From Hoeflea sp. BRH_c9 (lineage in GTDB: Bacteria > Pseudomonadota > Alphaproteobacteria > Rhizobiales > Rhizobiaceae): a stretch of DNA of 42,109 nt. Position numbers and translations under genes: made by a program. A model generated the notes under the pieces. The model did not search any database, was not told where the DNA came from, and saw only the letters and a program-made list of their open reading frames with translations. Positions 24,637 to 41,519 of the stretch are shown one piece after another (position 1 is the stretch's first letter; each line of letters starts with the position of its first letter). The DNA lies in assembly GCA_000961635.1 (NCBI GenBank), contig LADQ01000137.1, forward strand, positions 1 to 42,109, read 5' to 3'.

Positions 24637-25065
24637 TCACACGCGATCAGACATATGAATGCTCCCAGACGATGAGAAGACCCAAAAGCTCAGAGAAATG
24701 AAGGTCATGGCGGCCATCAATATCCCAAGCAGGGCTTGCGCGAACCAGTAGCTGACGCCCAGCCAGCCGGGCAACATGGCGGTCGCCGCGACGTTGATAA
24801 CAAAGATGATTGCGACCACAGCCAGATATCTCGCGCCGGCCGAACGGTGGGACCGGTCGGAGCCGTAGGTCCAGCAATAATGTGCCCAATAGTTGAACGA
24901 GACAGCCAGAACATAGGCAAGCGCGGCCCCGGCCGCCGGGGGCAGGGACGCCGACTCCACGGTAAGAACGAGTAGGCCGGCGTAAAGAGCAGCAGTCAAA
25001 AGGCCGATCGCGCCGAATTTAAGCAGCGTTAGGAGGTGCCGGCGTAGCCTTTGAAGGACTTGCAT
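24637..25065 (-). CDS. GtrA-like four-helix membrane protein
   Basis: 142-residue inner-membrane protein with four predicted helices (LLKFGAIGLLTAALYAGLLV; GAALAYVLAVSFNYWAHYCW; YLAVVAIIFVINVAATAML; ALLGILMAAMTFISLSFWVF). The conserved Phe-Asn-Tyr at the end of helix two is typical of GtrA, where the family has FxxNRxWxF; here it reads FNYWAHYCWTY. GtrA proteins are thought to help flip polyprenyl-phosphate-linked sugars. It is the last gene of the operon, starting 70 nt after the third methyltransferase, and would pair functionally with the GT2 enzyme at 29364-30374. Confidence 0.85.
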   Translation of the reverse strand: MQVLQRLRRHLLTLLKFGAIGLLTAALYAGLLVLTVESASLPPAAGAALAYVLAVSFNYWAHYCWTYGSDRSHRSAGARYLAVVAIIFVINVAATAMLPGWLGVSYWFAQALLGILMAAMTFISLSFWVFSSSGSIHMSDRV

Positions 25066-25135
25066 TGTCGCATTGCTCCGGTGCGCTTTATGCACCCTGA
25101 TCGTGGTCTTCAGTCGATTGGGTGACCTTGCGGGA

Positions 25136-25909
25136 TCACACTGGGACGTCCGTGCGCCGCCAATGCGCCAGGAACACGGCAAATGGGCCTTTTCCGGGAA
25201 GAGTGTTGTAGGCGCTTTCGATAGGAAACAGGATCGAGGATAGCGCGGGTTTTGCACCAAGCGGCACGCGTGTGATCAGGCTGTTGAGGATGAGGTAGAA
25301 GGCCGGCCCGCCGATATAGAGGACCCTTTCAGGAACGAAATAGGGCGCACCCAAACCAGCCAGTTCGCCGTGTTTCAGCGCTTCTTCGGTGTCGGCCTCG
25401 AACCACTGGTCCTTCTTGTACCAGATCCTTCGCAAGGAACTGAGAAAGAAATCGTCGTTGGGCTCCATCATCAGGAAATGCCCGCCAGGGCGGACCATGG
25501 CTGCCACGTTCTTCAAGGTCGTGCCGAGGTCGGCCACGCAGTGATGCAGTCCACCGATGATAAGAGCCGCATCATGCACCTCGTCGACCTTGGCGGGCAA
25601 TGTCAGATCGATCTGATGCGCCTGTCCGCGGGTGCGCGCACGATAGTCCCTGCAGGCGGATTCAGAAATGTCGTAGCCTGTTGTCCGGACAGAAGGGAAG
25701 TAACTGCGCAATGCCAGGGAATTGTGCCCGCTGCCGCAGGCAAGGTCAGCTACCGAGGCGTTTTCAAGATTTACGCCTTCAAGCAGCGGCCGATAGATGA
25801 ATCGATGGCGGTAAGCCATCGACGGGCCATCGTAATAGTGCGCTTCATAGGCATCATGAATGGCTTCGTAGTGCGCTTCCTGCGCGTTTGGCGTTCCATG
25901 GGGGCTCAT
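25136..25909 (-). CDS. Class I SAM-dependent methyltransferase
   Basis: 257 residues. The SAM-binding motif I VADLACGSGHNSLAL is at about residues 53-67, acidic motif II is TGYDIS, and LIIGGLHHCVADL plus VRPGGHFLMMEP follow as motifs post-I and III. The C-terminal 90 residues are not conserved with its neighbours and may bind the acceptor. The start overlaps the previous methyltransferase stop as ATGA. The acceptor is likely a sugar of the surface glycan made by this locus, but this rests on context only. Confidence 0.88.
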   Translation of the reverse strand: MSPHGTPNAQEAHYEAIHDAYEAHYYDGPSMAYRHRFIYRPLLEGVNLENASVADLACGSGHNSLALRSYFPSVRTTGYDISESACRDYRARTRGQAHQIDLTLPAKVDEVHDAALIIGGLHHCVADLGTTLKNVAAMVRPGGHFLMMEPNDDFFLSSLRRIWYKKDQWFEADTEEALKHGELAGLGAPYFVPERVLYIGGPAFYLILNSLITRVPLGAKPALSSILFPIESAYNTLPGKGPFAVFLAHWRRTDVPV

Positions 25910-26730
25910 TTTGCATCCTCGGTGTGAAGCGGGCGTTTGCCGACAGCGGTCCAGCTATACCCATGGCGGTGATGCAGCGTTACATCCTCGAATCCGGCCT
26001 CTTCGAGAAGGCGGCGAGCTTCATGCTCCCGGTAATATTTGGCATAGGCCGGCTTGAGCTGGTCGTAAATCACCAAAAAGCGCTTCTCCGGGGAAAACCG
26101 CCCTATCACTTCGGTCATGTAACGGCGCAGAGGAACGGGCATGCGTCGCGCCATCCAGATATAGGCTGCCAGCAGCCCGTTGAGAGCCTTGCATATAGGC
26201 ACCAGGAGCCAGTGCGGCAGCCGGGTCGAAAGTGCCCGAAGCGGTTGAACGAAAGCCAGATAGGCTCCATTGCCTTCATTGCCGTAAAGCCAAACGAGCA
26301 TCTTGCCGCCGGGCACGAGCGCCCTGTAGGCCGCCGCTACCACCGGTTTCGGATCCGGTATGTGATGCAGAACTCCGATGGATACGATGATATCCTGAGC
26401 GGGCGTTGGGGGCAATTGATCGCCGCGACACTCCAGATAGGTTATCTTTTCCTTGTCCTGACGTGTGTTTGCTCGCAGAACGGCCATCGCGCGCGACGGC
26501 TCCAGCGCAGTCACGTGCCCGGCCTTCGCCGCAAGCAGCATCTGCACGATGCGACCGGACCCACTGCCTATCTCCGCGACATTCTTTCCCTCGAGTTCCT
26601 CCACAGGAAGCAGCGGGCCGAAAATATCCGCCAGCAATTCGAACGAGCCGTAGTAACCGTCATTTTCGGTATAGCGGGTCCATTGGTCGCCAAAATCGTT
26701 GATAGTCCGATCTGTCAGTTCTCGGGTCAT
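25906..26730 (-). CDS. Class I SAM-dependent methyltransferase
   Basis: 274 residues. Motif I VAEIGSGSGRIVQML is at about residues 51-65, TALEPS is the acidic loop, followed by VSIGVLHHIPDPKPV and LVPGGKMLVWLYG. It has a long N-terminal segment (DFGDQWTRYTENDGYYGSFE) found in a group of polysaccharide-locus methyltransferases. Its start overlaps the upstream stop as ATGA, and its own stop overlaps the next start in the same way, so the three methyltransferases are translated as a coupled set. Confidence 0.88.
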   Translation of the reverse strand: MTRELTDRTINDFGDQWTRYTENDGYYGSFELLADIFGPLLPVEELEGKNVAEIGSGSGRIVQMLLAAKAGHVTALEPSRAMAVLRANTRQDKEKITYLECRGDQLPPTPAQDIIVSIGVLHHIPDPKPVVAAAYRALVPGGKMLVWLYGNEGNGAYLAFVQPLRALSTRLPHWLLVPICKALNGLLAAYIWMARRMPVPLRRYMTEVIGRFSPEKRFLVIYDQLKPAYAKYYREHEARRLLEEAGFEDVTLHHRHGYSWTAVGKRPLHTEDAK

Positions 26731-27485
26731 GTCGGGTCTCCGTTGCCTGGGCTGTCCGAACGGCGTGCGAGCACCAGAATCGAGACACCGAAGGGTGGTC
26801 TCAAATACGGCGCCGTCATCACATCCAGTCGAAACACCGCGCTGAGAATGCGATTCAGCAGGGGATTGTTCACCTCGTTTTCGCTGTCAAGATCGACTCT
26901 GGCGAGCTTGATGGCCTGACGCGCCATGAAGATCGGCACGAAAAGAAGGAAATTGAAATGAAATTTCCTTTCAGCCTTCAGTCCTGACCGCTCCAGCAGA
27001 CGCAGAAACGGTCCCATGCGGTAACGGCGATAATGATGGGATTTTTCATCCTGCAGACCCCAGAGGCTGGGGAACGCGGGCACGGTAATGAGAGCCACAC
27101 CGCCTGGCCGCAGTATCCGCCTGATCTCCCTGAGCGCGGCCTCATCCTGGTCGACATGCTCCACGACATCTGTCGCAGTTACCAGGTCAACCGAGCCGTC
27201 GGCTACCGGCAAGGCGCGGATGTCGCCGGCCTTTACCGTGCCCAGTCCTTTCTCGGCGCACCACCGTGCTGCCTCGGGGCTTGAATCTATACCGGTGACG
27301 TCGGCAAATCCCATTTCTCGCAGCAAGCGCAGATTGGCGCCCGTGCCGGTGCCTATATCGACAATTGTCGCGTCAGCGGGAATTCCTTCCCGGCGGATCA
27401 AGTTTGAAAAAAGCCGGCGGCGTTCCACGAACCACCAATGCGTGGCTTCTATCTTCGCTTCAGCGGCGTAGGCTGCCTCATCCAT
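26727..27485 (-). CDS. Class I SAM-dependent methyltransferase
   Basis: 252 residues. Motif I IVDIGTGTGANLRLL is at about residues 41-55, TGIDSS is the acidic loop, and TATDVVEHVDQDEAAL and LRPGGVALITVPAFP follow. The YRRYRMGPFLRLLE segment after motif III and a hydrophobic stretch (FNFLLFVPIFMARQAI) are shared with glycan-locus methyltransferases and suggest membrane proximity. It starts 3 nt after the AsnB-like gene, inside the same operon. The acceptor is unknown. Confidence 0.88.
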   Translation of the reverse strand: MDEAAYAAEAKIEATHWWFVERRRLFSNLIRREGIPADATIVDIGTGTGANLRLLREMGFADVTGIDSSPEAARWCAEKGLGTVKAGDIRALPVADGSVDLVTATDVVEHVDQDEAALREIRRILRPGGVALITVPAFPSLWGLQDEKSHHYRRYRMGPFLRLLERSGLKAERKFHFNFLLFVPIFMARQAIKLARVDLDSENEVNNPLLNRILSAVFRLDVMTAPYLRPPFGVSILVLARRSDSPGNGDPT

Positions 27486-27488
27486 ATC

Positions 27489-29360
27489 CTAATTCCCTTT
27501 GGGCGTTGCCGACCGCAGTGTGTGTTGCAAGCCCAACCATGTCCACAGCAGAAGCCGGTTGTCGGCCCGGCCACTGCGATGGTCGCGCCACGCCGTCTCC
27601 ATCCTGCCGGTGTTCATTCCCGGCACAGGGTTGAGGGGCGGAGTTTTCGGAATTTCGCGCATCCAGTCGGCCACCGGAATGCCGAACCCCTTCTTCTTGC
27701 GGTCCAGCGTGGACCGTGGCAGCAGCGGCTCCAGGGCCTTCTTCAAGAGGTATTTGCGCTGTCCATTGCGGAACTTGAACTGATGCGGAAGCCGGCAGCA
27801 GAAGTCGACCAGGTCATTGTCCAGAAAGACCGCACGGGTTTCCAGGGACGACATCATCGATGCGCGGTCGACCTTGGCGAGAATGTCATCCTGGAGATAG
27901 AAGCTGGTGAAGAACTGCAGCAGGCGATCGACCCGATTGCGCGCAGGACCCGTCTCCCAGAGATCGACAGCTTCGCTGAACACGTCCAGCGTCCGCACCG
28001 GCTGGTCGAAGAATTCATTGGCTATTTCCGGATCAATCGGAGCCATCCAGGTGGGCGCCCATGCCGATTCCGGTTGGGACAGCCCCATCAAGGTTCGCCG
28101 GACTTTGAAATCCAGGCTCATGTTCCGCGACGAACGCGGCAGATAGTCGGCGCAAACGCGAAAGATGTCATGCAGCGGCGCAGGAACCAGCGCGGAATAG
28201 AGGGCGGCCGGCTTGAGCGCCTTGAAGGGATCATAGCCCGCGAAAAGTTCATCTCCTCCGTCGCCGGATAAGGCCACGGTCACGTGTTCGCGGGCGAATG
28301 CGCTGAGCACATGGGTAGGTATTATGGATGGATCCGCTGTCGGTTCGTCAACGCGCGACAGGATCGAGGGGATCAGGTTCCGCGCATCGTCGAGACTGAG
28401 AATCCGCTCGTTGTGGTCCGAGCCGATATGGGTCGCAACCTGGCGGGCAAATCCGGATTCATCGTAGGACGGTTCGTTGAAACCGATCGTGAAACTGTGA
28501 AGGTTTCCTGGAGTCACCTTCCTGGCGGCTGCCGCCAGGATCGCACTGGAATCAAGGCCACCGCTGAGAAAAATGCCAATGGGCACATCGCTGACCAGGC
28601 GGCGGCTGGTGGCCTGCAGGAACAATTCGCGTAACTCTTCGGCAAGCGCCTCGGTGCCGCGTTCGGCAAGCGCCTCGTCGGGTGCAAGCGTGAAGCGCCA
28701 GTAGGCGTGGGTGCGGGTCTCCAGCGTGTCGAGGTCCACTGTCATATAATTGCCGCCCGGCAGCTTGGACGTGCCTTCATACAGCGCGTTGGGGGCGGGC
28801 AGATAGCCGTAGGCAAAAAGCTTGCGCAGCGACATGACCGACGGCGTGGCTTCGATCTGGCGGTGCTGGACGAGCGCCGAGAGTTCGCTGGCGAAGGCGA
28901 ACAGGTCCCGCCTTGCACAATAGTAAAGCGGCTTTTCACCAAATCGGTCCCGCGCCAGATACAGGCGCCGCTGCCCGACGTCGAACACGGCAAAGGCGAA
29001 CATGCCATTGAGCCGTTCGGCAAGGCCCACGCCCCATTCGGCATAACCGTAGATCAGAACCTCCGTATCCGAATGGCTGGTGGCAAAAACATGCCCGGCG
29101 GCTTCCAGCTCCGCGCGCAGCGTCTCGTGATTGTAGATCTCGCCGTTGTAGACGATGCAGATCGTGCCGGCGGCATTCCACATGGGCTGGCCGCCGCCGC
29201 TCAAGTCGCGAACCGCCAGGCGCCGGTGCCCCAGGTGAAGCGACAGATCAGCATCTATATGGAATCCCTCGCTGTCGGGCCCGCGGTGCGCAAGCGCCCG
29301 CGTCATCGCCAGGAGGTCGGTTTGGTCGCCCCGTCCGACAAATCCGGCTATTCCGCACAT
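27489..29360 (-). CDS. asnB: Asparagine synthase (glutamine-hydrolysing)-type amidotransferase
   Basis: 623 residues. The N-terminal glutaminase domain starts with the catalytic Cys2 (MCGIAGF) and has RGPDS and YNGEIYNH. The synthase domain has the PP-loop FLSGGLDSSA (Ser/Gly loop at about residues 265-273) and VALSGDGGDELFAGY. Full length for class B enzymes. It is coupled to the GT2 gene (3 nt apart) and to methyltransferases. AsnB-type proteins in polysaccharide loci can convert uronic-acid carboxylates to amides instead of making free asparagine; with two uronic-acid enzymes in this locus I favour that role, but asparagine synthesis is not excluded. Confidence 0.9.
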   Translation of the reverse strand: MCGIAGFVGRGDQTDLLAMTRALAHRGPDSEGFHIDADLSLHLGHRRLAVRDLSGGGQPMWNAAGTICIVYNGEIYNHETLRAELEAAGHVFATSHSDTEVLIYGYAEWGVGLAERLNGMFAFAVFDVGQRRLYLARDRFGEKPLYYCARRDLFAFASELSALVQHRQIEATPSVMSLRKLFAYGYLPAPNALYEGTSKLPGGNYMTVDLDTLETRTHAYWRFTLAPDEALAERGTEALAEELRELFLQATSRRLVSDVPIGIFLSGGLDSSAILAAAARKVTPGNLHSFTIGFNEPSYDESGFARQVATHIGSDHNERILSLDDARNLIPSILSRVDEPTADPSIIPTHVLSAFAREHVTVALSGDGGDELFAGYDPFKALKPAALYSALVPAPLHDIFRVCADYLPRSSRNMSLDFKVRRTLMGLSQPESAWAPTWMAPIDPEIANEFFDQPVRTLDVFSEAVDLWETGPARNRVDRLLQFFTSFYLQDDILAKVDRASMMSSLETRAVFLDNDLVDFCCRLPHQFKFRNGQRKYLLKKALEPLLPRSTLDRKKKGFGIPVADWMREIPKTPPLNPVPGMNTGRMETAWRDHRSGRADNRLLLWTWLGLQHTLRSATPKGN

Positions 29361-29363
29361 GGC

Positions 29364-30374
29364 CTAGTTCTCAGCCATATTGATTGTCTCTCGCACGCTG
29401 TAGGAGCGGCGACCCTGCGATTCGAAATAGGTCCGCACCAGCATTTCGGCGAGCAGACCCATCAGCAAACTCAGGACGCCGACCAGAAACAGGATCGCCG
29501 CGAGGATCGGCAGCGGGGTCTGGACCATCGATGTCCCATAGGCGATTTTCAACCAGATCATCCAAAGCGTTGCGAATCCGGAAACCGCCAGGGACAACAG
29601 CCCGAAGCCGCCGAACACATAGATCGGCTTGACGAAATGTCGATCGAGGAACTTGACCACCATCAGATCGAGGATGACCTTGGCCACCCTTTCGAGACCG
29701 TATTTGGATTTGCCGAATTGCCGTGCGTGATGGCGCACCGGCAATTCACACACCCGCGCGCCCATCCACGACGCATAGATGGGAATGAAGCGGTGCATTT
29801 CGCCATAAAGGCGCACATCTTTTACGACATCATGCCGGTATGCCTTGAGGGTGCAGCCGTAATCATGAAGCTCCACGCCGGATATTCTCGAGATGATGCG
29901 GTTGGCAACGCGGCTGACGAAATTTCGCCGAATCGCCGCGTCCTGCCGGTCCTTGCGCCAGCCGGAAACGACGTCGTAGCCTTCTTCCATCTTGGCCAGC
30001 AGCGCCGGGATATCGCGCGGATCATTCTGCAAATCGGCATCGATGGAGACGATGACTTCACCTGCTGCATGATCGATGCCCGCCATCATGGCCGCGGTCT
30101 GACCGTAATTCCTGCGAAAACTGACGATCTTGAGTTCCGGGCGGACAGACGCTTCCGCGCGAAGGATCTCAAGCGATTTGTCCTTGCTGCCATCGTTTAT
30201 GCAGATGACTTCAAAAGATGTGTCAATTGTCTCGAGAACGTTGAACAGGTCCCGGCAAAGAACCGGAATGCTTTCTTCCTCGTTATAAATGGGAATGATG
30301 ACCGAGAGGAATGGCCGGCCGGCCTTTGAAGCGCCGCTTGCGCGTCCGCGATCAACGATTGATGATTGTGTCAT
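29364..30374 (-). CDS. GT2 glycosyltransferase, polyprenyl-phosphate sugar synthase type
   Basis: 336 residues. The GT-A domain has SVIIPIYNEE (residues 24-33), INDGSKDKS (about 59-67) and the DxD motif IDADLQNDP (Asp112/Asp114). Two C-terminal helices follow (YVFGGFGLLSLAVSGFATLW; LPILAAILFLVGVLSLLMGL), the layout of DPM1/ArnC/GtrB enzymes that move a sugar from a nucleotide donor to a polyprenyl phosphate. In rhizobia the enzyme of this type called RgtE makes dodecaprenyl-phosphate-galacturonic acid. The UDP-uronate genes upstream make the same product plausible here. The gene stands 125 bp after the last GT-C gene and 3 nt before asnB. Confidence 0.88.
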   Translation of the reverse strand: MTQSSIVDRGRASGASKAGRPFLSVIIPIYNEEESIPVLCRDLFNVLETIDTSFEVICINDGSKDKSLEILRAEASVRPELKIVSFRRNYGQTAAMMAGIDHAAGEVIVSIDADLQNDPRDIPALLAKMEEGYDVVSGWRKDRQDAAIRRNFVSRVANRIISRISGVELHDYGCTLKAYRHDVVKDVRLYGEMHRFIPIYASWMGARVCELPVRHHARQFGKSKYGLERVAKVILDLMVVKFLDRHFVKPIYVFGGFGLLSLAVSGFATLWMIWLKIAYGTSMVQTPLPILAAILFLVGVLSLLMGLLAEMLVRTYFESQGRRSYSVRETINMAEN

Positions 30375-30499
30375 TCGAGCTCATCCAGAATGTCCAAGGA
30401 GTACGATCGGCGGAAACAGCCCGCGATGAACAATGTTAAGAGTATCCCGATCGCCCGAACCTCCTAACAAAGGCTGGTGTGTTTATCAATGGCGTGCCT
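30375..30499 (-). promoter_or_regulatory. Spacer upstream of the GT2-led operon with a conserved AGGAGGT block
   Basis: In the direction of transcription it contains TTAGGAGGTTCGGG about 25-40 nt after the GT-C stop. A closely similar block (GTAGGAGGTTTGGG) lies at the same distance after the third GT-C copy (near 34678-34691). It may be a duplicated remnant rather than a working ribosome site, as no start codon follows closely. Confidence 0.35.
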
Positions 30500-32413
30500 T
30501 CACTCAACCTGATTTTCGACCGGATTGTGAACGCATGGCCCCATCGCGGCGAAGTCTTTGTTGAAGAAGAGAAGGAGCGGCTCCGGTGCCCCGCCCTGCG
30601 GGCACGCGATTTTCCATCGGAGGTCTTTGAAAACGGCGCGGTAGCTGCCGTCACTCTTTTCGGATGTAACAACCAAACGGCTTCCGGCTTCGACTTTCTT
30701 GAACACACTGCCTTCCACTACACTCCCCGGAGCCCCGCTCAGGAGCCGGAATGACAACCATCGTTTTTTGTCGCCTGAAAGGATTCCGATACCAAGCGAG
30801 CCTTCTTCCAAGATGAGATTGTACCGGACAAATACAAAATCCCCGGAACCTGTCTTCATTGGCGCGTCGAGCAAATAGGACCCGCTCTTGGCCTTGAAAG
30901 CCAATGTTGAACCACCGGACGATTCTGAAACATCAACGTCCGGAATAGACTTGTGAATTGAAAAATCTTCCAGCGTTCCCGTCCAGGTCAATTCTTCCAT
31001 CGAACGCGATTCCCGCGCATCCAGAAAAGCCGCCTCGAGCGCCAACAATCTTACAATGGGAAAGAGGATAAACGAATAGGCTACCAGCGCACCCGTCGCA
31101 ACAGTTGCGACGACTGCCCTGGATATTCTGGCTTGCAGCGGCCCCCAATTATTGAGGAAAAGCGAGGGCAATTCAGCGACAGCAGCTAGGAAAATCGGGA
31201 ATGCAATCAGGTAGCTCAGGCTCGCATATCGTACATAGCGCTGATCCACGTAGAGCATGCCAAGGCTGCAGACGGCATATCCCGCCGGGAGCGCGACCAG
31301 GAACGCATCGGACCACCGCCTTTTCCACAAGAGCCAGAAAAGCGCGATCGGGGCCGTACACAGCATCGCCCAGAATAGATAATCGGTGAGCTCGACGAGC
31401 TTGGGATTGCCAAACTTGAGATCAACCGATGTCAGGATCAGTTTGACGCGAAAAACAATCGTCTGCAAAACATGGACCGGATGCTCAAGCCAGGCTGAAA
31501 TGTATTCAGCTTTCCAATACGCCTCTGCTTGCACAGATTGGTACGCCATGCCCTTTGAACTCAACAACTTCTGTGCAAGCTGGTCATTGACAAAATATCC
31601 GTAGTCGTTTGGCACCTGACCCAGACCCGCCCAAGCCGCGTACCACTTCACCGGAGGCGTCAGCAGGAACGTTCCATGGACAAGGTAGTTTCGAATGACC
31701 CATGCCACCAGTGGAGTAGCGAAAGCAAGGACAACGCAAACTGCTGATCTGAGGCGCTTCCGGGCTGGCGAGACCAAAGCGGCCCAGACGACCAGGGGAA
31801 TGAACAGCAGAACCATTTCCGAGCGGAAGAAGGGAAGGATCGCGGCGAACAATCCCAGGGCAATCCAGGAATGCATCTGGTTCGGATGTTCGCGAATGGC
31901 GACCAGCGCAGCAAGCAACAAGATGAACAAGGCCGGAAGAAGCGACTCCGCCAGCAGATATGTCGACCCGGCGGCCCACCACGGCGAAACCGCATATATC
32001 CCACACGCGAAAAGGGCGAGAATATTGCTTCTTGCCATATTCTTTGCGACAAAAAACAATGCAAAAATTGCAATCGCGTCAACAATGGAATGAATGATTC
32101 TGACTATAATCAGACTGTCTATTCCGACAATTTTCAATAAAGCCAGGAACGCAGGATATCCTGGAAGGTACCCAAACAACTTAATCTCGAATTCATCTGA
32201 TAATATTATGTCTCTTATATATATGTAATTCCTTGTCATTCCACCATAATAATTATTGATCGCCCACGTAATTTGCTCGTCAATAAATCCGCCACGCCCC
32301 AATAGTGAGTAAAATCGCGCAACTATTGCGACTAAAATAATCAAAATAATCAATAAATTACATAAATGTCTATTTGATATGGAATAGAATAACTTTAAAT
32401 TCATGATGGGCAA
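30500..32413 (-). CDS. GT-C-like membrane glycosyltransferase, tandem copy 1
   Basis: 637 residues with about 11-12 predicted helices and a soluble C-terminal part of about 150 residues. The first periplasmic loop carries RGGFIDEQITW, with acids in the place where GT-C enzymes keep their catalytic Asp/Glu, followed by GYLPGYP; the core has SPWWAAGSTYLLAESLLPAL and LTPPVKWYAAWAGLG. The C-terminus resembles a beta-sandwich (KSGSYLLDAPM, RWLSFRLLSGAPGSV). TTG 32413 has GGAG 9 nt upstream; ATG 32404 is an alternative without one. It is a paralogue of the two genes upstream. GT-C enzymes such as ArnT and rhizobial RgtA-D transfer sugars from polyprenyl phosphate on the periplasmic side; that role is inferred here. 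Confidence 0.8.
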   Translation of the reverse strand: MPIMNLKLFYSISNRHLCNLLIILIILVAIVARFYSLLGRGGFIDEQITWAINNYYGGMTRNYIYIRDIILSDEFEIKLFGYLPGYPAFLALLKIVGIDSLIIVRIIHSIVDAIAIFALFFVAKNMARSNILALFACGIYAVSPWWAAGSTYLLAESLLPALFILLLAALVAIREHPNQMHSWIALGLFAAILPFFRSEMVLLFIPLVVWAALVSPARKRLRSAVCVVLAFATPLVAWVIRNYLVHGTFLLTPPVKWYAAWAGLGQVPNDYGYFVNDQLAQKLLSSKGMAYQSVQAEAYWKAEYISAWLEHPVHVLQTIVFRVKLILTSVDLKFGNPKLVELTDYLFWAMLCTAPIALFWLLWKRRWSDAFLVALPAGYAVCSLGMLYVDQRYVRYASLSYLIAFPIFLAAVAELPSLFLNNWGPLQARISRAVVATVATGALVAYSFILFPIVRLLALEAAFLDARESRSMEELTWTGTLEDFSIHKSIPDVDVSESSGGSTLAFKAKSGSYLLDAPMKTGSGDFVFVRYNLILEEGSLGIGILSGDKKRWLSFRLLSGAPGSVVEGSVFKKVEAGSRLVVTSEKSDGSYRAVFKDLRWKIACPQGGAPEPLLLFFNKDFAAMGPCVHNPVENQVE

Positions 32414-32565
32414 TTGCGTTTACTCCGCAAAAATGCACTTATGGGTTGCATAACTAACTGGTATTTTCTAACTGCTTTCAGGCCCGGGTTTGGCATGCAA
32501 GCGCATCCTCTCATCGTTCGCGAACTACAAAGTGCGTCAATATCGAATATTCCTTTACGTTCGCT

Positions 32566-34497
32566 TCATTCGACCTGGTTTTGAAGGCATGGCCCGGTCA
32601 ACGCAAAGTCTTTGTTAAAGATGAGCAGGAGGGGCTCCGGTGTCCCGCCCTGCGGACAGGCGATTTTCCATCGGAGGTCTTTGAACACGGCGCGGTAGCT
32701 GCCCTCGCTTTTTTCGGATGTAATAATCAAACTACTTTCGTCTTCAGCTTTCATGTAAAAGCTGCCTTCCCGTGCGGTGCCCGGCGCTCCGCTGAGGAGC
32801 CGGAACGACAACCATCGCGCTTTGTCCTTCGACAGAACTCCAATACCAAGTCCTCCTTCTTTCAGAACGATTTTGTATTTAATGTGGACAAAATCGCCGG
32901 GGCCATTGTGCATTGGCGCAGCCAGTAAATAAGACCCACTCTTAGCTGTGAATGATAATTCCAATCCATCAGCCGATTTCGAAACATCAACGTCCGGAAT
33001 CGATTTATGAAGTGTAAAATCGTCCAGTGTCCCCGTCCAGGGCAATATTTCCATTGAATGCGGCTCGCGCATATTTGCATAGGCCGCTTCGACCGCCATC
33101 TGTCTTAACGCTGGAAGGAAATTGATTGAATAGGCTGCTAGCGCGCCAACCGCAAGAGTTGCGACAACCGTCATCGATATTCTGGCTTGGGTAGCACCCC
33201 ACTTATTGAGAACATGCGACGGCACTTCAGTGACGGCAGCTAGGAATATTGGAAAGGCAATCAGGTAGCTCAGGCTCGCATATCGAACATAGCGCTGCTC
33301 CACGTAGAGAAGGCCAAGACTGCAGACAGCATATCCCGCCGGGAGCGCGACCAGGAACGCATCGGACCAACGCCGCTTCGACACAAGCCAGATGAGCGCG
33401 ATCGGGGTCGAACACAGCATCACCCAGAATAGATAGTAGGCCAGATCAACAATCTTGGGATTTGCAATACTGAGATCAATTGCCGTCAAGATCAATTTGA
33501 AGCGGAAGATAATTGTTTCCAAAACATGGGCCGGATGTTCAAGCCAAGCGGACATGTATTCCGCTTTAAAATGCGCCTCTGATTGCGCAGTATGTTGGGT
33601 GATCCCCTTGGACTTTAAGAAGATGCCCGCGAGATAATCACTTGTCTCGTATCCATAGTCGTTGGGGACTTGGCCCAATCCCGACCAGGCAGCATACCAT
33701 TTCACTGGAGGCGTCAGCAGGAACGATCCATGGATAAGGTAATTTCGAATGACCCATGCTGACAAGGGAGCAGCGAAAGCAAGGACAACGCAAGCTGCTG
33801 ACCTGAGGCGTTGCCGGGCTGGCGTAACCAAAATGGCCCATACCGCCAAGGGAATGAACAGCAATACCATTTCCGAACGGAAGAAGGGAAGGACTGCCGC
33901 AAGAAGCCCGAGAACAATCCAGGAAAGCAACTTTTCCGGGTGTTCACGTATGGCGACCAATGCCGCAATGAGTATAATGAAAAGCGCGGGCAAAAGTGAC
34001 TCGGCGAGCAGATAAGTCGACCCGGCCGCCCACCAGGGTGAAGCGGCGTAAATGCCACAAGCAACAAAAGCAAAAACATAACTCCGTGATGTTATATTTG
34101 CTATATAAATCAGTGGTAAAATAGCAATAACGTCTAAAAAAGACTGAATAAATCTGATTGCAATAAGATTTTCTGTTATAGTTGATTTGAAAATTGCTAA
34201 AAATGTAGGATATCCTGGAGGATACGCATAAATATATTTTTCAAAAATTGGCGATAAAATTACATCTCGCATGGAAATATATATTTTTGTGAGCACACCA
34301 AGATAATTATTCGCAACTGCCCATTCTACTTGATCTTCGTAAAACCCCCCTCTTATGAGAATAAGATAGCTCCGCACTAAGACTGCGATGAGCAGAATTG
34401 TTGACAATATGCCATATTTAAGGGCCTTTGTTTTTAGTCTGAACGTTCGGTGGGGTAATTTAGCCGATGAAGTTGACTCCGCAAAGTTTGGATTCAT
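32566..34497 (-). CDS. GT-C-like membrane glycosyltransferase, tandem copy 2
   Basis: 643 residues, paralogue of the genes on both sides. The N-terminal 36 residues are polar and not conserved; then come a membrane helix, loop RGGFYEDQVEWAVANN and AYPPGYPTFLAI. From CGIYAASPWWAAGSTYLLAE onwards it is nearly identical to copy 1, including the C-terminal soluble part (AKSGSYLLAAPM, RWLSFRLLSGAPGTAREG, CPQGGTPEPLLL). The first about 400 bp (34080-34497) are very AT-rich (15 of 60 G+C at 34141-34200), against 36 of 60 at 33661-33720. It is 152 bp from copy 1 and 248 bp from copy 3, so each copy may have its own promoter. The acceptor is unknown. Confidence 0.8.
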   Translation of the reverse strand: MNPNFAESTSSAKLPHRTFRLKTKALKYGILSTILLIAVLVRSYLILIRGGFYEDQVEWAVANNYLGVLTKIYISMRDVILSPIFEKYIYAYPPGYPTFLAIFKSTITENLIAIRFIQSFLDVIAILPLIYIANITSRSYVFAFVACGIYAASPWWAAGSTYLLAESLLPALFIILIAALVAIREHPEKLLSWIVLGLLAAVLPFFRSEMVLLFIPLAVWAILVTPARQRLRSAACVVLAFAAPLSAWVIRNYLIHGSFLLTPPVKWYAAWSGLGQVPNDYGYETSDYLAGIFLKSKGITQHTAQSEAHFKAEYMSAWLEHPAHVLETIIFRFKLILTAIDLSIANPKIVDLAYYLFWVMLCSTPIALIWLVSKRRWSDAFLVALPAGYAVCSLGLLYVEQRYVRYASLSYLIAFPIFLAAVTEVPSHVLNKWGATQARISMTVVATLAVGALAAYSINFLPALRQMAVEAAYANMREPHSMEILPWTGTLDDFTLHKSIPDVDVSKSADGLELSFTAKSGSYLLAAPMHNGPGDFVHIKYKIVLKEGGLGIGVLSKDKARWLSFRLLSGAPGTAREGSFYMKAEDESSLIITSEKSEGSYRAVFKDLRWKIACPQGGTPEPLLLIFNKDFALTGPCLQNQVE

Positions 34498-34745
34498 GTG
34501 ATTTCATCACTACTTGTTGAAGTTCTGTTTGTTGTGTCGAAGTCAAAATATCTCGTTCGATCGCATCAGACCGTATACTCCGGCCGAAGACCTTCTCTAT
34601 CTCTTCCAAGCTATCAAAAATGCGCGACGCCGCGCGTGGAAGCAGCAAGCAATGCGCGGCAAAATGATATCCCTCCCCCAAACCTCCTACCAAAGGTTAA
34701 TCGGTCGCACAATCGGGGGCGCGTGAACTTGCCTTTAAGGGCGAC
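34498..34745 (-). other. 248-bp spacer between GT-C copies 2 and 3
   Basis: Contains a block with GTAGGAGGTTTGGG shortly after the copy 3 stop that matches the spacer after copy 1. A 77-codon open frame crosses into copy 2 but shows no recognisable domain. It may hold the promoter of copy 2. Confidence 0.4.
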
Positions 34746-36644
34746 CTAGTTTGCAGCACATGGTCCCATCGCGATCAGGTCCTTGTTGAACAGGAGCCCA
34801 AGCGGTTCGGGTTTGGCTTCCGACACGCAGCCACCTTTCCACTTGATCCCCTGGATCAGGGCACGGTAACGGCCCTCGCCGTCCTCGGCGGTGATGACCA
34901 GGCTGCTGCCGGGCTCGACCATCGTCGTGAACTCGCCCTCGATGACGCTGCCCGGCGCACCCGTCAGATAGGAGTAGGACAACCATCTTTGGTTGTCTGC
35001 CGAGAGGACGCCCATTCCAAGACCGGCTTCATCCAGCCTGACCCTGTAGCGGACGGTCACGGCTTCACTTTGCCCGCTTTCGAGCGGAGCTGTGGCCAGA
35101 TACAAACCGTCGCGGGCCTCGGCGCTCAGCGCCAAGCCCGTGCCGCTCTTCGAAATCTCCACATCGGGCATGGCCTTGACGAACGACAGCTCGTCCAGGC
35201 CCTGGCTCCAGGGCAGCGCCTGCGTCGTGCCTAGATCGAGCCGCTGGGAATAGACCTCACGCATAGCCTTGGACCTCAGCGCCCCGTATTGAACTGCGGC
35301 ATGGATGATCAGGCCGATCATCGCGGCGACTGCGAGCGTGAGCCTTGCTTGACTCCTGCGTTTTTCACTCCAGTCCCTGGCAAAACGGGAAGGCAAATCT
35401 GCGCTCGCGGCCAGAAGGACCGGAAAGGCCAGAGCATAGGTGAGACTTGCATATCTCACATACCGCTGCTCCACATAAAGGATACCGAGACTGCACAACG
35501 CATAGCCCGCAGGCAGGGCAACAAGCAGTGCGTCAGTCCAACGCCGCCGCCAAAGGAGCCAAAGCAGGGCAAAGGGCGTCGCGTACATAATCGTCAGAAA
35601 AAGAATATCCGTGAGTTCGACAATCTTGAAATCGAATTTCAGCAAAATCCGCTGGACGCGGAAAAATATCGTCTGAAGCACATGCTCCGGATGCTCGAGC
35701 CAAGCCGATATATATTCAGATCTCCAGTAATTCTCGGCTTGCGGACTGCCAAATCTCATACCATTCGAATTTAGAATTTCTGATGCGATTTTGTCGCTAA
35801 CACTATATCCGAAAGTGTTTTCTATTTGCCCCAATCCCGACCAGGCAGCGTACCATTTCACCGGTGGGGTCAGGAGGAAATACCCGTGCACGATATAATT
35901 CCTGATGATCCATGCGAACAGAGGAGAAGCGAACGCAATGAGGACGCCAAATACCGATAACAGGCGGCGCCTTGCGGGAGCAACCATGATCGCCCAGATA
36001 GCCAACGGAATGAAAATCAGAAGCATATCGGAACGGAAGAACGGCAGGACTGCGCCGAACAAACCAAGTGCTATCCAGTGATGCAATTTTCCCGGGCGCT
36101 CACGAATGGCAACCAAGGCGGCAAGCAGGCAGATCACGAGAGCTGGCAGAAGCGATTCGGCGAGAAGATACGTTGACCCCGCCGCCCACCAGGGGGCCGT
36201 CGCGTATAGGCCAGAGGAAATGAGGGCAAGAGGAGCCGATCTGGTTATCTTATGAGCTACATAAAACAGCGGAATAATTACAATGGAATCAATTATAGAT
36301 TGAACAACTCTCACATATATAAGAGTATCTGAAATAAATATATCAATAATAGCCAAAATAGCCGAATAACCCGGTAAATATATAAAAAGTTTCTTTTCTT
36401 GTTCGCCTGAAAGTATAAAATCTCTTATTTGAAGATAATTTCTTGTGAGGCCTCCCAAATAATTATCCATAGCCCAATCAAATTGATCAGCGTATAGTCC
36501 GCCCCTAATTACAATAATATTCAGCCGAAGCGCTACGGCAAAAAACAGAAAAGCAATTAGAATAGAATAAGTGATATACGTCTTTTTGAAAAAACGAATG
36601 TGCGAAAAAACTCGAGAAGCGAAGGAATTATAATAATTCAACAT
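34746..36644 (-). CDS. GT-C-like membrane glycosyltransferase, tandem copy 3
   Basis: 632 residues, most divergent of the three copies but with the same layout: N-terminal helix, loop RGGLYADQFDWAMDNY, YLPGYSAIL, core APWWAAGSTYLLAESLLPAL, LTPPVKWYAAWSGLG, and a C-terminal soluble part (ARDGLYLATAPL, RWLSYSYLTGAPGSVIEG, GIKWKGGC). The ATG at 36644 is preceded by GAGG at 7-nt spacing and lies just after the ugd stop, so this copy is coupled to ugd. The first 400 bp hold 14 of 60 G+C at 36301-36360, against 38 of 60 at 35521-35580. Its C-terminus lacks the NQVE ending of copies 1 and 2. Confidence 0.8.
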   Translation of the reverse strand: MLNYYNSFASRVFSHIRFFKKTYITYSILIAFLFFAVALRLNIIVIRGGLYADQFDWAMDNYLGGLTRNYLQIRDFILSGEQEKKLFIYLPGYSAILAIIDIFISDTLIYVRVVQSIIDSIVIIPLFYVAHKITRSAPLALISSGLYATAPWWAAGSTYLLAESLLPALVICLLAALVAIRERPGKLHHWIALGLFGAVLPFFRSDMLLIFIPLAIWAIMVAPARRRLLSVFGVLIAFASPLFAWIIRNYIVHGYFLLTPPVKWYAAWSGLGQIENTFGYSVSDKIASEILNSNGMRFGSPQAENYWRSEYISAWLEHPEHVLQTIFFRVQRILLKFDFKIVELTDILFLTIMYATPFALLWLLWRRRWTDALLVALPAGYALCSLGILYVEQRYVRYASLTYALAFPVLLAASADLPSRFARDWSEKRRSQARLTLAVAAMIGLIIHAAVQYGALRSKAMREVYSQRLDLGTTQALPWSQGLDELSFVKAMPDVEISKSGTGLALSAEARDGLYLATAPLESGQSEAVTVRYRVRLDEAGLGMGVLSADNQRWLSYSYLTGAPGSVIEGEFTTMVEPGSSLVITAEDGEGRYRALIQGIKWKGGCVSEAKPEPLGLLFNKDLIAMGPCAAN

Positions 36645-36646
36645 TA

Positions 36647-38020
36647 TCAAACCTCACGCAGTATACTAACTAAATTGTGTTTATCATTCATGCGTTTACC
36701 TCGACCAATCGCGTAGTATCGAAGGCCGTAGCGCGAAACGGTTTCCGGATTGAACAGGTTTCTGCCATCGAATATGACCGGATGCTTGAGTTTCGATTTC
36801 ATCAGATCGAAATCGGGAGCGTGAAACTGCTTCCATTCTGTCGCAATCACCAATGCATCGGCGCCGTCGAGAGCGGCTTCGGGACTGTCGACCAGAGCCA
36901 GATCGACGCGCTCGCCATATAGACGCCGGCATTCGCCCATCGCCTCGGGATCAAACGCGCGGACATGGGCGCCGGCCTCCCAGAGCGCCTGCATGATTAC
37001 CCGTGAGGGCGCTTCGCGCATGTCGTCGGTATTGGGCTTGAAGGCCAATCCCCAGAGCGCAAATGTCCTGCCTTTCAGATCATCGCCGAAATGCTGGCGG
37101 ATCTTGTCGAAGAGCACGGTTTTCTGGGTCTTGTTCCGGGCCTCGACTGACTTGAGCACCGCAGGCTCGAAGCCGGCGCTTTCCGCAAGGTGAATGAGCG
37201 CTTGCACATCCTTCGGAAAACAGGAGCCGCCATACCCAATGCCCGGATAGATGAAGTGATAGCCTATGCGCGGATCGCTGCCTATGCCGCGGCGAACTTC
37301 TTCGATATCAGCGCCCAGACGCTCGGCGAGATTGGCCATCTCATTCATGAAACTGATCTTTGTCGCGAGCATGCAATTGGCCGCATACTTGGTGAATTCG
37401 GCGCTCCGCGCATCCATGATAATGATTTTGTCATGGTTGCGGCTGAACGGCGCATAGAGTTCCCGGACAACCTGCTCCGTCTCTTCATTGTCCGTACCGA
37501 GAATGATCCGATCGGGCTTCATGAAATCCGCCACCGCCGAGCCTTCCTTCAGGAACTCGGGGTTGGAGGCAACGTCGAAGGTCAAGTCGGGGCGACCGCG
37601 CGCAACAAGACTGGCCTGGACCACGGATCTGATCCTGTCGGCCGTACCGACCGGCACGGTCGACTTGGTGATGATGATCCTGTGCCCGTCCATGTGGGTA
37701 GCGATCGATTCCGCGACGGCGATCACATGTCTGAGATCGGCGGAGCCGTCCTCGTCCGGCGGCGTTCCGACGGCGACGAACTGGATCTTGCTGTGTTCGA
37801 CGCCCCTTGCGGCATCAGAGGTGAATTGCAGCCGTCCGGCCTCGTGGTTCTCCTTGACGAGCCGGGTAAGGCCAGGCTCGTAGATGGAAACTTCACATCG
37901 GTTCAGGCGCTCTATCTTGTCGGCGTCAACGTCGACGCAGATAACGTCGTGCCCGACATCGGCCAATGCCGCTGCCTGGACAAGTCCGACATAGCCAATT
38001 CCAAAGATCGTGACTTTCAA
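36647..38020 (-). CDS. ugd: UDP-glucose 6-dehydrogenase
   Basis: 457 residues; oxidises UDP-glucose to UDP-glucuronate with two NAD+. The N-terminal dinucleotide motif FGIGYVGLV is at residues 6-14. [13 protein letters not shown], the helix with [11 protein letters not shown], and the catalytic Cys267 in YGGSCFPKD are all present, as is the C-terminal UDP-binding domain ([17 protein letters not shown]). The start codon is TTG at 38020, chosen because [12 protein letters not shown] is the family N-terminus and no in-frame ATG precedes it. It is followed directly by GT-C copy 3 and supplies the uronic-acid precursor for the epimerase. Confidence 0.95.
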
Positions 38021-38269
38021 TGCCAGAGGCCCCCATTGCGAAACACGCCGATTGCCTGAAATGGCAAGGGACAGTGTTCAATCTCGTTTTCCCATGAACG
38101 CCCGAAGTTCAGGTATCGATCCGCCGCGGCGTTGCAGTCCGGTAGGATGTGGGATTGGCACATGCGATACCGGGACGCAACCTTGACAGGGATCCGGGAA
38201 GGAATTTCAATCTGCGTGGCCCCCGATCCGGATTCCGCAGCCCAGGTCCAGGTCGTTCAATCCATCGGT
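38021..38269 (-). promoter_or_regulatory. 249-bp gap upstream of ugd, probable promoter
   Basis: Separates the epimerase stop from the ugd TTG start. Long enough to hold a separate promoter for ugd and the GT-C genes, but no clear -35/-10 pair, terminator or operator was picked out. Confidence 0.35.
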
Positions 38270-39292
38270 TCAGATTTGATAGTATGAACGATACCAATCA
38301 ACGAACTTTTTCACTCCAACCGCTATATTGGTCGATGGCGCATAATTCAATTGCCTGGTCAATTCGCTGGTGTCGGCAAATGTGTCCGGTGCATCTCCGG
38401 CCTGCATTGGCAGCATTTCCATAATCGCCTTCTTGCCCAGGGCGGTTTCGATCGCTTCGATATAGGTGAGAAGCTTCTCCGGTTTGCCATTGCCGATATT
38501 GAACAGCCGAAAGGGCGCCGAACTGGTCGCAGGGTCGGGCCTCTTGCTGTTCCAGTCCGGGTTGGGTCTGGCAATGTCGTCGCTGGCCTTGATGACGCCC
38601 TCAACAATGTCATCCACATAGGTAAAGTCACGGGTGTGGTTGCCGTGATTGAAAACCGGAATGGGCTTTCCTTCCAAGACCAGCTTTGTGAATTTGAACA
38701 GCGCCATGTCGGGCCTGCCCCATGGACCGTAGACGGTAAAGAACCGCAGCCCGGTGGTCGGCAAGCCGAACAGGTGCGAGTAGGAGTGCGCCATCAACTC
38801 GTTGGCCCGTTTTGTCGCGGCATAGAATTGGAGGGGATGATCGGCGCCGGAATGCTCGGAGAATGGCATGCTGGTGTTGGCGCCGTAGACACTTGACGTG
38901 CTGGCATAGGTGAGGTGGGGAACCTCAGTGTGACGGCAGGCCTCGAGCAGGTTGGTAAACGCGACGATATTGCTTTCCACGTAGGATTGCGGCTTCTCGA
39001 GACTGTAGCGTACTCCGGCCTGGGCGGCGAGATGGATAACCCTGTCGTAACGCTGTCCCGCAAACAAGGCGTCGACCGCCGCCTTGTCCTCGAGGCCGGC
39101 CCTGACGAACCGGTAGCTCCCTGCGGAGACAGCTGCTAGCTTCTGGATGGCCGTCAACCGGGCTTCTTTGAGTTCCGGATCGTAATACTCGTTGACGTTG
39201 TCGATGCCAGTGACATCATCCCCGCGTTTGATCAATCGTTGGGCGACATGGAACCCAATGAAGCCGGCATTGCCGGTGACGAGGATTTTCAT
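38270..39292 (-). CDS. NAD-dependent epimerase, UDP-glucuronate 4-epimerase-like
   Basis: 340 residues, extended SDR. Cofactor loop GNAGFIG is at residues 7-13. [20 protein letters not shown] is the signature of bacterial UDP-GlcA 4-epimerases. Ser134 stands in STSSVYG, and the catalytic Tyr157/Lys161 in [25 protein letters not shown] is also typical. The start ATG has AGGAG 7 nt upstream. The expected product UDP-galacturonate is the donor needed by the GT2/GT-C enzymes downstream. The G in GNAG replaces the A or G more often found as GAAG; this is minor. Confidence 0.92.
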
Positions 39293-39583: not shown

Positions 39584-40393
39584 TTAATTGGTTTCTGATT
39601 TTCCACCATCAACAGCGCGGGCGGATTGCAACCATCCATCTTGCGGATAGGATAACGGATAAAACTCATCCGGCCGCGCCATTGCATCGATTGCGAACAA
39701 AAGATCTTCGAGCCGGTAGGGGTATTCTGCCAAAGACCGTCCGGGCCGTGGGCTGGAGAGGTATGTCGGAGTAACCTCCCCGCCTGATCTCGCGCATTCA
39801 AAAATGCCGTTCGCGTCGAGAGCCAAGAGGCTACCGTTGCAGCTATAAGTAGCGTTAAATGTCGGGTCAAAGGCTATGGCCTTCCCATCTAATTTCACTT
39901 CAACGAACGTGTGCGTCGCAGCCGGATCATCCCCGGATAAAAACTCCTGTGCAGCGATACTTACAGGCCGCGCTTCAATCCCGAAGAGATCAAGTGCCCA
40001 TATGAGCGTTGAACTCAGCGTCGCACACATATTCGCAACATCGCCACCTGTCGTCTGGAGGTAGCGCCGGGCATCGTTGGTTGTTGTTGCCCACGGCTTG
40101 CCTGTGAACAAGGTTGCGTCATACAGGTGGGCTGTCAATTTTTTGGTGATCGCCAGCTTGTCTGTTTCATCCTTAGTGATGCCTGCCTTCGCCCGGAAAA
40201 GGTCTCGGAAAGCATCATTCCGGTCCGAATAGACCACTGCTAATTCTTCGCTAAGCTGAGACGCATTTTCCCATCCGCGCAGTGCACTTTCGCGGGCTCG
40301 ATAGGCATAGACCGCCGTAAGCGCGGCCACGGATGAAATGCAGACGAGCGCGCCTATGAAGAGTTTGCGCTCGATGGGATGCCTCTCCGTCAC
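39584..40393 (-). CDS. Membrane-anchored transglutaminase-like protein
   Basis: 269 residues. One N-terminal helix (LFIGALVCISSVAALTAVYA) anchors a periplasmic domain. A Cys-His-Asp set in the transglutaminase-fold order is visible: Cys123 in ANMCATLSSTLIWALDLFGI, His161 in THTFVEV and Asp176 in AFDPTFN. In bacteria this fold includes proteases, amidases and cross-linking enzymes. The start is a GTG at 40393 with GGGGAAGG just upstream, and no ATG precedes the helix. It lies 291 bp upstream of the epimerase with its own spacing, so co-transcription is uncertain. The substrate is unknown; a protein or glycan-amide target at the cell surface is an inference. Confidence 0.7.
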   Translation of the reverse strand: MTERHPIERKLFIGALVCISSVAALTAVYAYRARESALRGWENASQLSEELAVVYSDRNDAFRDLFRAKAGITKDETDKLAITKKLTAHLYDATLFTGKPWATTTNDARRYLQTTGGDVANMCATLSSTLIWALDLFGIEARPVSIAAQEFLSGDDPAATHTFVEVKLDGKAIAFDPTFNATYSCNGSLLALDANGIFECARSGGEVTPTYLSSPRPGRSLAEYPYRLEDLLFAIDAMARPDEFYPLSYPQDGWLQSARAVDGGKSETN

Positions 40394-40694: not shown

Positions 40695-41519
40695 TTAAGG
40701 GCGTCTCTTGGCATGAGCGATAACGTACCAGCCGAAGGCCCTGCCAATTGTATCAAGCAAACCACGTGGAATGTGCTTGAAGTAGCGGTGGATGAACCAA
40801 ACAGAGGGTAACTCTTCCCAGACGAGCTTGCGCACCTTCGTGGATTGCACCTCGAAGTCCGCATCTTCCAGCATTTTTGTCACTTCAGACCGCGAGTAGA
40901 CATTAACGATCGGGCGCTCTCCCGCCTCGTTGTACTCGATACGGGACAGCCTTTCCTTAAGGGTTTCGTGCCTCCACCCGCCATGAATGATCTGATACCA
41001 AATCGCCAGCGTGACCCGGTAAAACACTGAATTCTTGTGATAGAGGATGACGTAGAAGTCGCCGCCGGGCTTTAATACGCGCGCGGCTTCGGCAAATGCT
41101 GTCTCGATGCTCGGCACATGATGTAGCACGCCATTTGAATAGACTGTGTCGAAGGTGCCGTTTTCGAAGGGCAGCTTTTCAGCATCGCCCTGCTGCACGT
41201 TCGGTGAATATCCAAATAGCGCCATGTGTTTGCGGGCACGTTCAGGGTTCTCAGGGGTAATATCGATGCCAGAATAGTCGGCGCCGACGCGCATGAATGT
41301 ATAGGTGTCGAAGCCAGCGCCGAAACCGATCTCAAGTACGCGCTTGCCGGACATGTCTTGGAACGGGACAACGTCAGCAAGCCACGGTTGCTCATACTCT
41401 GTTCGATATTTTAGCGCGCGTTCGAAGAAGTCCCGAGTGCCTGGTTCGGCCCCTTTAGCCGAAGTGGTTCCGGCCGGAGAACTCCCCCAAGTCTTTTGCG
41501 CTGTCAGCTTCCCGTCCAT
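40695..41519 (-). CDS. Class I SAM-dependent methyltransferase
   Basis: 274 residues. Motif I VLEIGFGAGFDTYTF is at about residues 61-75, SGIDITPEN is the acidic loop, and VYSNGVLHHVPSIETAF, LKPGGDFYVILYHK follow. This sequence family is common in polysaccharide and lipid-linked glycan loci. The C-terminus (WFIHRYFKHIPRGLLDTIGR) is basic and amphipathic and may touch the membrane. It is separated from the transglutaminase-like gene by 301 bp and transcribed in the same direction. Confidence 0.87.
   Translation of the reverse strand: MDGKLTAQKTWGSSPAGTTSAKGAEPGTRDFFERALKYRTEYEQPWLADVVPFQDMSGKRVLEIGFGAGFDTYTFMRVGADYSGIDITPENPERARKHMALFGYSPNVQQGDAEKLPFENGTFDTVYSNGVLHHVPSIETAFAEAARVLKPGGDFYVILYHKNSVFYRVTLAIWYQIIHGGWRHETLKERLSRIEYNEAGERPIVNVYSRSEVTKMLEDADFEVQSTKVRKLVWEELPSVWFIHRYFKHIPRGLLDTIGRAFGWYVIAHAKRRP

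Follow-up and report, generated by a model that had tools for sequence, protein, structure and literature searches.

A candidate three-component glycosylation locus with an AsnB-like amidotransferase and an ArnC-like glycosyltransferase in Hoeflea sp. BRH_c9

The window analysed here is a stretch of 42,109 nucleotides from Hoeflea sp. BRH_c9 that makes up the whole of contig C145 in a draft genome of 3.86 Mb (279 contigs, 77% complete). An earlier note had placed a uronic-acid glycan-decoration locus at positions 24637-39292. Every gene that it named was found there as an intact open reading frame on the minus strand, and the UDP-glucose 6-dehydrogenase (UGD), the UDP-glucuronate 4-epimerase, a family 2 glycosyltransferase (GT2), a GtrA-like protein, an amidotransferase and all three methyltransferases were supported by matches in Pfam or NCBIfam (Pfam for GtrA). 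Together with three GT-C-like glycosyltransferase paralogues, these genes may encode a pathway that transfers an amidated uronic acid to a surface glycan. The genes, with two neighbours whose membership is less certain, are as follows.

24637..25065, minus strand: GtrA/DPMS-TM protein, predicted polyprenyl-phosphate-sugar flippase (PF04138; called open reading frame 24637-25260)
25136..25909, minus strand: MT257, class I S-adenosylmethionine (SAM) methyltransferase (Pfam Methyltransf_12)
25906..26730, minus strand: MT274, class I SAM methyltransferase (Pfam)
26727..27485, minus strand: MT252, class I SAM methyltransferase (Pfam)
27489..29360, minus strand: AsnB-like glutamine-dependent amidotransferase, proposed uronamide-forming enzyme (Asn_synthase and GATase_7)
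29364..30374, minus strand: ArnC-like GT2, proposed polyprenyl-phosphate-uronate synthase (PF00535, ArnC structures, tree)
30500..32413, minus strand: GTC3, GT-C-like paralogue (C-terminal domain aligned to the carbohydrate-binding-module-like domain of GTC2)
32566..34497, minus strand: GTC2, GT-C-like paralogue (C-terminal domain like a carbohydrate-binding module (CBM), residues ~481-616; full-length model and Foldseek)
34746..36650, minus strand: GTC1, GT-C-like paralogue (core modelled)
36647..38020, minus strand: UGD (TIGR03026)
38270..39292, minus strand: UDP-glucuronate 4-epimerase (PDB matches, tree, motifs)
39584..40393, minus strand: transglutaminase-like protein, a weak match (PF01841, 16.6 bits, cut-off 23), cluster membership unsure
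40695..41519, minus strand: MT274b, fourth methyltransferase (Pfam), membership likely but not certain

Five junctions are tight, with 4-base overlaps at MT257/MT274, MT274/MT252 and GTC1/UGD and 3-base gaps at MT252/AsnB and AsnB/GT2; the remaining junctions measure 70 to 249 bases. The GC content is 0.48-0.52 in the GT-C genes versus 0.56-0.61 in the rest of the gene row that runs from GtrA to the epimerase. For the GtrA gene, 25065 is the more probable start, since a frame that starts at 25260 runs into MT257.

Genomic pairing of the AsnB-like and GT2 genes

The amidotransferase carries the Asn_synthase and GATase_7 domains (Pfam) and Cys2, which is the make-up of a glutamine-dependent AsnB-type enzyme. 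The neighbouring GT2 matched PF00535, and its best PDB matches were ArnC structures (214 bits), which would qualify it as the polyprenyl-phosphate-sugar synthase of a three-component system; against the NCBIfam ArnC equivalog it scored 235 bits, below the cut-off of 529.

The same pair was found in other Pseudomonadota. Of 384 other genomes sampled from the class (cut-offs E<=1e-130 for AsnB and E<=1e-85 for GT2), eight encode AsnB, and in seven of these a GT2 homologue directly adjoins it in the same orientation. The GT2 gene of genome G560 contains an in-frame TAG. A phylum sample of 278 other genomes yielded 11 with AsnB, seven of which have the GT2 right beside it and in the same orientation. 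Over both samples, the GT2 was the next neighbour of AsnB in 14 of the 19 other AsnB-encoding Pseudomonadota genomes; these 19 are all different, and some genomes without a match are shared by the two samples. When the GT2 was taken as the starting point, seven of the 15 class genomes with a GT2 at the cut-off had a cut-off AsnB beside it. The corresponding phylum count, which covers the 12 genomes with a GT2 of at least 55% identity and leaves aside 18 at 43-52%, gave AsnB beside the GT2 in nine, one of them cut by a contig end and one with a divergent AsnB of only 35% identity; AsnB was not beside the GT2 in G930 and G1010, and G1030 was cut off. In G018, from the same family as the host, the adjacent pair is accompanied by a divergent membrane protein of 625 residues.

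Five Azospirillum plasmids, selected as those that topped both the AsnB and the GT2 plasmid searches, all carry both genes. They lie in one cluster, with at least one gene between them, in four of the five, and ~50 kb apart in the fifth. All four clusters contain a large uncharacterised protein and an LPG_synthase-TM flippase-like gene, three of the four stretches have two methyltransferases, and two have rfbF/G/H genes. In Azospirillum lipoferum 4B, a cultured bacterium, AsnB and the GT2 are in one cluster.

AsnB, already listed in the earlier note, gives the main clue to the locus: it is the most recurrent partner of this GT2 among those looked at. An amidotransferase in that position implies a carboxylate-bearing substrate, and it suggests an amidated donor rather than the plain galacturonate (GalA) that the earlier note had in mind; the UDP-GalA part of its proposal is supported. 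The literature covered, which did not extend to most subscription papers, contained no report of an amidotransferase as part of a lipid-linked donor pathway or of an AsnB-linked polyprenyl-phosphate-sugar synthase.

The GT2 tree had 31 rows picked from hits, without the phylum-sample GT2s and that of G560, and so covers only part of the GT2s. Thirteen of the 14 AsnB-associated rows (AsnB adjacent or near) formed one set (support 96/95), five rows without AsnB a separate set (93/98), and three rhizobial rows from flippase-GT2-GT39 trios a third (100/100). The exception was the G645 GT2, labelled as near AsnB and lying outside the AsnB-linked set, so that this label needs two changes on the tree. 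ArnC, which like several other rows is long-branched and of unsure exact placement, fell on the AsnB-linked side, in line with the ArnC part of the earlier assignment (DPM/ArnC/RgtE type). On the opposite side (100/100) were SfV GtrB, the GT2 of host contig C56 and six weaker GT2 relatives; these six, each beside one many-helix membrane protein, were set aside because they grouped with GtrB. One of the trios is in a record of Sinorhizobium meliloti and two are in genomes of other Rhizobiaceae (L016, L057, L058); they carry no functional label, and their GT2s are ~43% identical.

The AsnB tree comprised 25 rows picked from hits, WbpS itself being left out, and Cys2 was present in all 25. Fourteen GT2-linked rows grouped with G645 and an unlinked copy from Azospirillum TSA2s (100/100), and nine other AsnB-like proteins lay outside this set. 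In the stretches examined around these nine, this type of GT2 was not a neighbour, the nearest being 1.6 kb away in G632, and they sit among other glycosyltransferases. A Pseudomonas aeruginosa plasmid, pPALO11 (L160), has an AsnB-like gene in a polysaccharide cluster with tviB and tviC; the window AsnB belongs to a different tree set from this protein.

Donor-sugar genes and conservation of the cluster

UGD scored 459 bits against TIGR03026 (NCBIfam; cut-off 190). The closest PDB entry to the epimerase was 5u4q (452 bits), which bears the name dTDP-glucose 4,6-dehydratase in its deposition, followed by 6zl6 (171 bits), which we take to be the Bacillus cereus UDP-GlcA (glucuronate) 4-epimerase, BcUGAepi. 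By hand count in the alignment to 6zl6, T186 and R193 of the window epimerase stand opposite Thr178 and Arg185, Thr178 being the number that we presume for the B. cereus enzyme. The epimerase tree had 13 rows. The window protein, its L006 and L007 counterparts, those of Mesorhizobium and Acuticoccus, and the product of a Klebsiella gene near ugd, presumably uge, formed a uronate-type clade of six (98/98), set apart from the seven others, which included TviC and RfbB and of which several were long-branched. The motif FTVYGPxxRP was present in all six and in none of the seven. According to the part of a report on such enzymes that was available, the carboxylate of UDP-GlcA is held by threonine and serine residues and that of UDP-GalA by Arg185 (PMC12338863). 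The window epimerase has the carboxylate-binding Thr/Ser and Arg expected of a UDP-GlcA 4-epimerase, and it did not cluster with a non-uronate clade. These results support a predicted UDP-GalA route in the window, as the earlier note had supposed. The epimerase was widespread, occurring in 28 of 32 genomes and in nine of the 12 that were unselected. At that frequency, donor supply is possible, though not evidenced, in most hosts.

The GtrA protein matched PF04138 over residues 81-195 of the called frame (62 bits, cut-off 26.1), in agreement with the earlier assignment, and gives the cluster a candidate flippase gene. The accessible part of one report treats GtrA proteins as putative flippases (PMC7389260).

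A gene-order comparison, which the earlier note had called for, showed conserved content and order at two other loci, L006 in an Alphaproteobacteria metagenome-assembled genome and L007 in Rhizobiales bacterium 62-47. A core of one to three GT-C genes followed by GT2, AsnB, MT252, MT257 and GtrA, with an epimerase nearby, was present in all three genomes with GT-Cs, and the cluster is therefore not a chance assembly. In L006 the identities were 84% for the epimerase, 85% for UGD, 87% for GT2, 86% for AsnB, 81% for MT252, 86% for MT257, 62% for GtrA and 54% for MT274b, with two GT-Cs. In L007 they were 44% for the GT-C, 76% for GT2, 74% for AsnB, 71% for MT252, 76% for MT257 and 52% for GtrA; the epimerase (69%) lies 5.6 kb away and UGD (46%) is on the other strand, with what read as dTDP-sugar-type genes between. 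GT2, AsnB, MT252 and MT257 were the best conserved in both, and the GT-Cs and GtrA less so.

No MT274 homologue was among the L006 and L007 cluster matches; five stretches from the phylum sample (L183, L184, L189, L191, L195) carry homologues of ~27-31% identity close to AsnB or GT2. MT252 homologues lie near AsnB/GT2 in L114 (48.5%), L116 (50.8%) and L120 (41.9%), and MT257 had no plasmid match at E 1e-5. An MT274b homologue adjoins GtrA in L006, and one of 57% identity (L022) lies ~14 kb from the L007 cluster. No homologue of the transglutaminase-like protein was found among the matches in the L006 and L007 clusters.

The GT-C-like proteins

GTC2 shares 66-67% identity with one of its two paralogues and 51-52% with the other, and it groups with GTC3 (97/98). 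None of the three had a Pfam match at E 0.1, and the two proteins run against NCBIfam had none there; the family is without any current Pfam profile. No GT-C homologues were found in 60 relatives, in 296 other genomes of the order, or among the viral contigs and plasmids searched. A pattern-based scan of genome contigs gave full-length relatives at only two loci, L006 and L007. There are three copies in the window, two in L006 (one frameshifted) and one in L007. The second L006 gene (L006:12105-14017) is spread over two frames, either by a real frameshift or by an assembly error.

In a full-length AlphaFold2 model of GTC2 built from six rows, ten-residue means of the predicted local distance difference test (pLDDT) were 65-86 over residues 481-610, and 18 of the 19 Foldseek PDB matches of the model at E<=0.001 were carbohydrate-binding modules. 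A model of the GTC1 core was built from seven rows (predicted template-modelling score 0.55). All six of its matches at E<=0.001 were oligosaccharyltransferase complexes. Ranks 1-20, with template-modelling scores by query length of 0.35-0.49, were oligosaccharyltransferase, PglB, archaeal oligosaccharyltransferase, DPY19 or translocon entries, rank 7 being taken as an oligosaccharyltransferase subunit chain by inference, and ArnT was at rank 25 (E 0.2). The modelled core thus appears to resemble GT-C enzymes, which supports, but does not prove, the earlier description of the three proteins as GT-C-like. All six GT-C rows that cover the site have an Asp or Glu after the first helix.

A membrane protein near the AsnB-GT2 pair of G581 matched the GT-C core distantly (hhalign E 3.8e-6), and its 34% homologue in G936 comes directly after AsnB; no relative of it was found on the plasmids searched. 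Profile comparisons of the GT-Cs with P605, the Azospirillum 659-residue protein and the G018 625-residue protein gave nothing. A membrane protein of ~605 residues is common to L006:5116-6939 and L007:19236-21053 (47-48% identity), with a homologue of 29-32% on host contig C56 (L017:10023-11888); no Pfam match was found for the L006 copy.

Proposed pathway and its alternatives

On balance, and with slightly better than even confidence, we read the locus as an extracytoplasmic glycosylation system of the three-component kind whose donor is a uronic acid, probably in amidated form. UDP-Glc would be converted to UDP-GlcA by UGD and then to UDP-GalA by the epimerase, and the ArnC-like GT2 would load the sugar onto polyprenyl phosphate at the cytoplasmic face of the membrane. 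AsnB would convert the C6 carboxylate to an amide with glutamine as the nitrogen source, at either the UDP- or the lipid-linked stage, and the methyltransferases might add methyl groups. The donor that we propose is thus galacturonamide, a uronic acid in amidated form, carried by polyprenyl phosphate. GtrA would flip it, and the three GT-Cs, of different specificities, would transfer the sugar to a surface glycan held by their CBM-like domains. The acceptor would most likely be lipopolysaccharide or another envelope polysaccharide; no genes for acceptor assembly were recognised in the cluster, so that calling it self-contained, as the earlier note did, says too much. We infer the amide, the identity of GalA, the substrates, the order of amidation, the flipping and the acceptor. 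Family or fold underlies the steps assigned to the sugar genes, the GT2, the flippase and the GT-Cs, and gene pairing and kinship with WbpS-type enzymes underlie the amide step. In the parts seen of one report, the uronamide-linked WbpS and WbqG are assigned to the TIGR03108 family, and deletion of the related PGN_1234 abolished a uronamide (PMC7468200).

The locus is best placed among three-component glycosylation systems rather than as an Rgt system. It shares with GtrA-GtrB-Gtr(X) of the Shigella phages SfV and SfX a small flippase, a GT2 polyprenyl-phosphate-sugar synthase and dedicated, here putative, final transfer, but its GT2 belongs to another clade, its transferases are three in tandem, and it adds an amidotransferase, methyltransferases and donor-sugar genes. 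The Citrobacter youngae ORF12-15 pentofuranose system (GT136) similarly has a lipid-linked donor, a flippase, a GT-C with a C-terminal CBM and a sugar-tailoring enzyme in the cassette; it differs in using ribofuranose as donor, with a PPPRS for synthesis and a MATE protein for flipping. No amidotransferase is reported in the parts of the source seen, and the likeness of its ORF12 to the window GT-Cs is one of architecture (C-terminal CBM) (PMC11127046). WbpS and WbqG, from O-antigen loci, are AsnB-like and share TIGR03108 as best NCBIfam model, whereas the window AsnB is paired with a polyprenyl-phosphate-sugar GT2. ArnC provides the closest solved structures to the window GT2 and lies on the same side of the tree, but the locus lacks an arnA/B/T-like setting.

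A wider proposal is more tentative, and we put it at somewhat less than even. AsnB and its ArnC-like GT2 neighbour could be a module, widespread among Pseudomonadota and so far undescribed, for making uronamide linked to polyprenyl phosphate, which would be a lipid-linked donor of a new class. Swappable flippases and GT-Cs would then place neutral amide sugars on surface glycans, and the window GT-Cs, with their C-terminal CBM, would make up a new GT family. Amide masking of a charged sugar alters envelope charge, which is relevant to antimicrobial peptides, plant contact and phage binding. If the proposal is correct, uronic-acid amidation would be tied to a lipid-linked donor pathway, AsnB beside this GT2 clade would be a genomic marker for amidated surface sugars in many bacteria, some of them cultured, and a GT-C family would be defined.

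Several observations weigh against the main reading. The window AsnB scored 476 bits with TIGR03108, below the cut-off of 817. Four of the 11 phylum genomes with AsnB had no adjacent GT2; in G988 a 39% GT2 lay ~0.9 kb away, and in G895, G918 and G939 none was found in the stretch examined around AsnB. Eight of the 15 class genomes with the GT2 had no AsnB at the cut-off, although AsnBs of 35-36% identity were adjacent in G693, cut by a contig end, and 1.6 kb away in G632; in the remaining six none was seen nearby, G726 being cut by a contig end. The window, L006 and L007 were the only loci where both UGD and the epimerase were seen close to AsnB-GT2, and because the epimerase is so common its co-occurrence with the pair is uninformative. 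The models had a low mean pLDDT (52.6 for GTC2, 53.9 for the GTC1 core), a sequence search of the PDB with the GT-Cs returned only an unrelated match at E 0.65, and profile comparisons with four rhizobial GT39-type proteins and one PMT_2 protein gave nothing.

That last comparison bears on the foremost alternative, an Rgt-like system in which unmodified galacturonate passes from polyprenyl-phosphate-GalA to lipopolysaccharide core or lipid A and AsnB acts elsewhere, for instance on uronic acids of the acceptor. The logic of UDP-GalA, GT2 and GT-C is shared with rhizobial RgtE and RgtA-D/F, and the UDP-GalA route and the ArnC-side GT2 fit it. We nevertheless consider it unlikely: AsnB is the next gene to the GT2 in many families, and the GT-Cs showed no kinship with the four rhizobial GT39-type proteins. 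We know of no AsnB partner in Rgt systems, and a tie between the GT-Cs and RgtA-D (GT83), as suggested by the earlier note, was not shown. Rhizobial precedent with RgtE and GT-C enzymes does exist, according to the portion of the source available (PMC7663294); looking for a labelled RgtE yielded only published identities, those of proposed RgtE homologues to RL1470 (RgtE) being 33-40% in that source.

It is improbable that the donor is not a uronic acid at all and that UGD and the epimerase feed another polysaccharide, having become neighbours by chance during island assembly. The restriction of these two genes to three of the AsnB-GT2 loci examined would fit, as would their looser arrangement in L007, whereas an amidotransferase partner implies a carboxylate, and each of the three genomes with GT-Cs has the epimerase close to the cassette. 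Decoration of secreted or membrane proteins by the GT-Cs, in the manner of PglB or Pmt, seems very improbable to us. The best fold matches are indeed oligosaccharyltransferase, PglB and DPY19 entries, but these may reflect only the shared GT-C fold, and the CBM-like domain together with the rfbF/G/H neighbours on two Azospirillum plasmids favours a glycan acceptor.

Mis-binning of the window was considered because the congeners searched had no GT-Cs and the genome is a fragmented draft; a match of host contig C56 to the downstream region in the L006 genome (80%, 7.4 kb) argues against it. Beside the cluster lie a phage-integrase fragment (21774-22256) and a zinc-ribbon piece of an ISL3-type transposase (23411-23902), which suggest the edge of a genomic island. 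Elsewhere in the window, two AraC-type regulators with Cupin_6 domains (17543-18481 and 20381-21406) adjoin short-chain dehydrogenases. Contig C56 (L017) carries a second AsnB-like gene and may be a neighbour of the window contig in the host genome.

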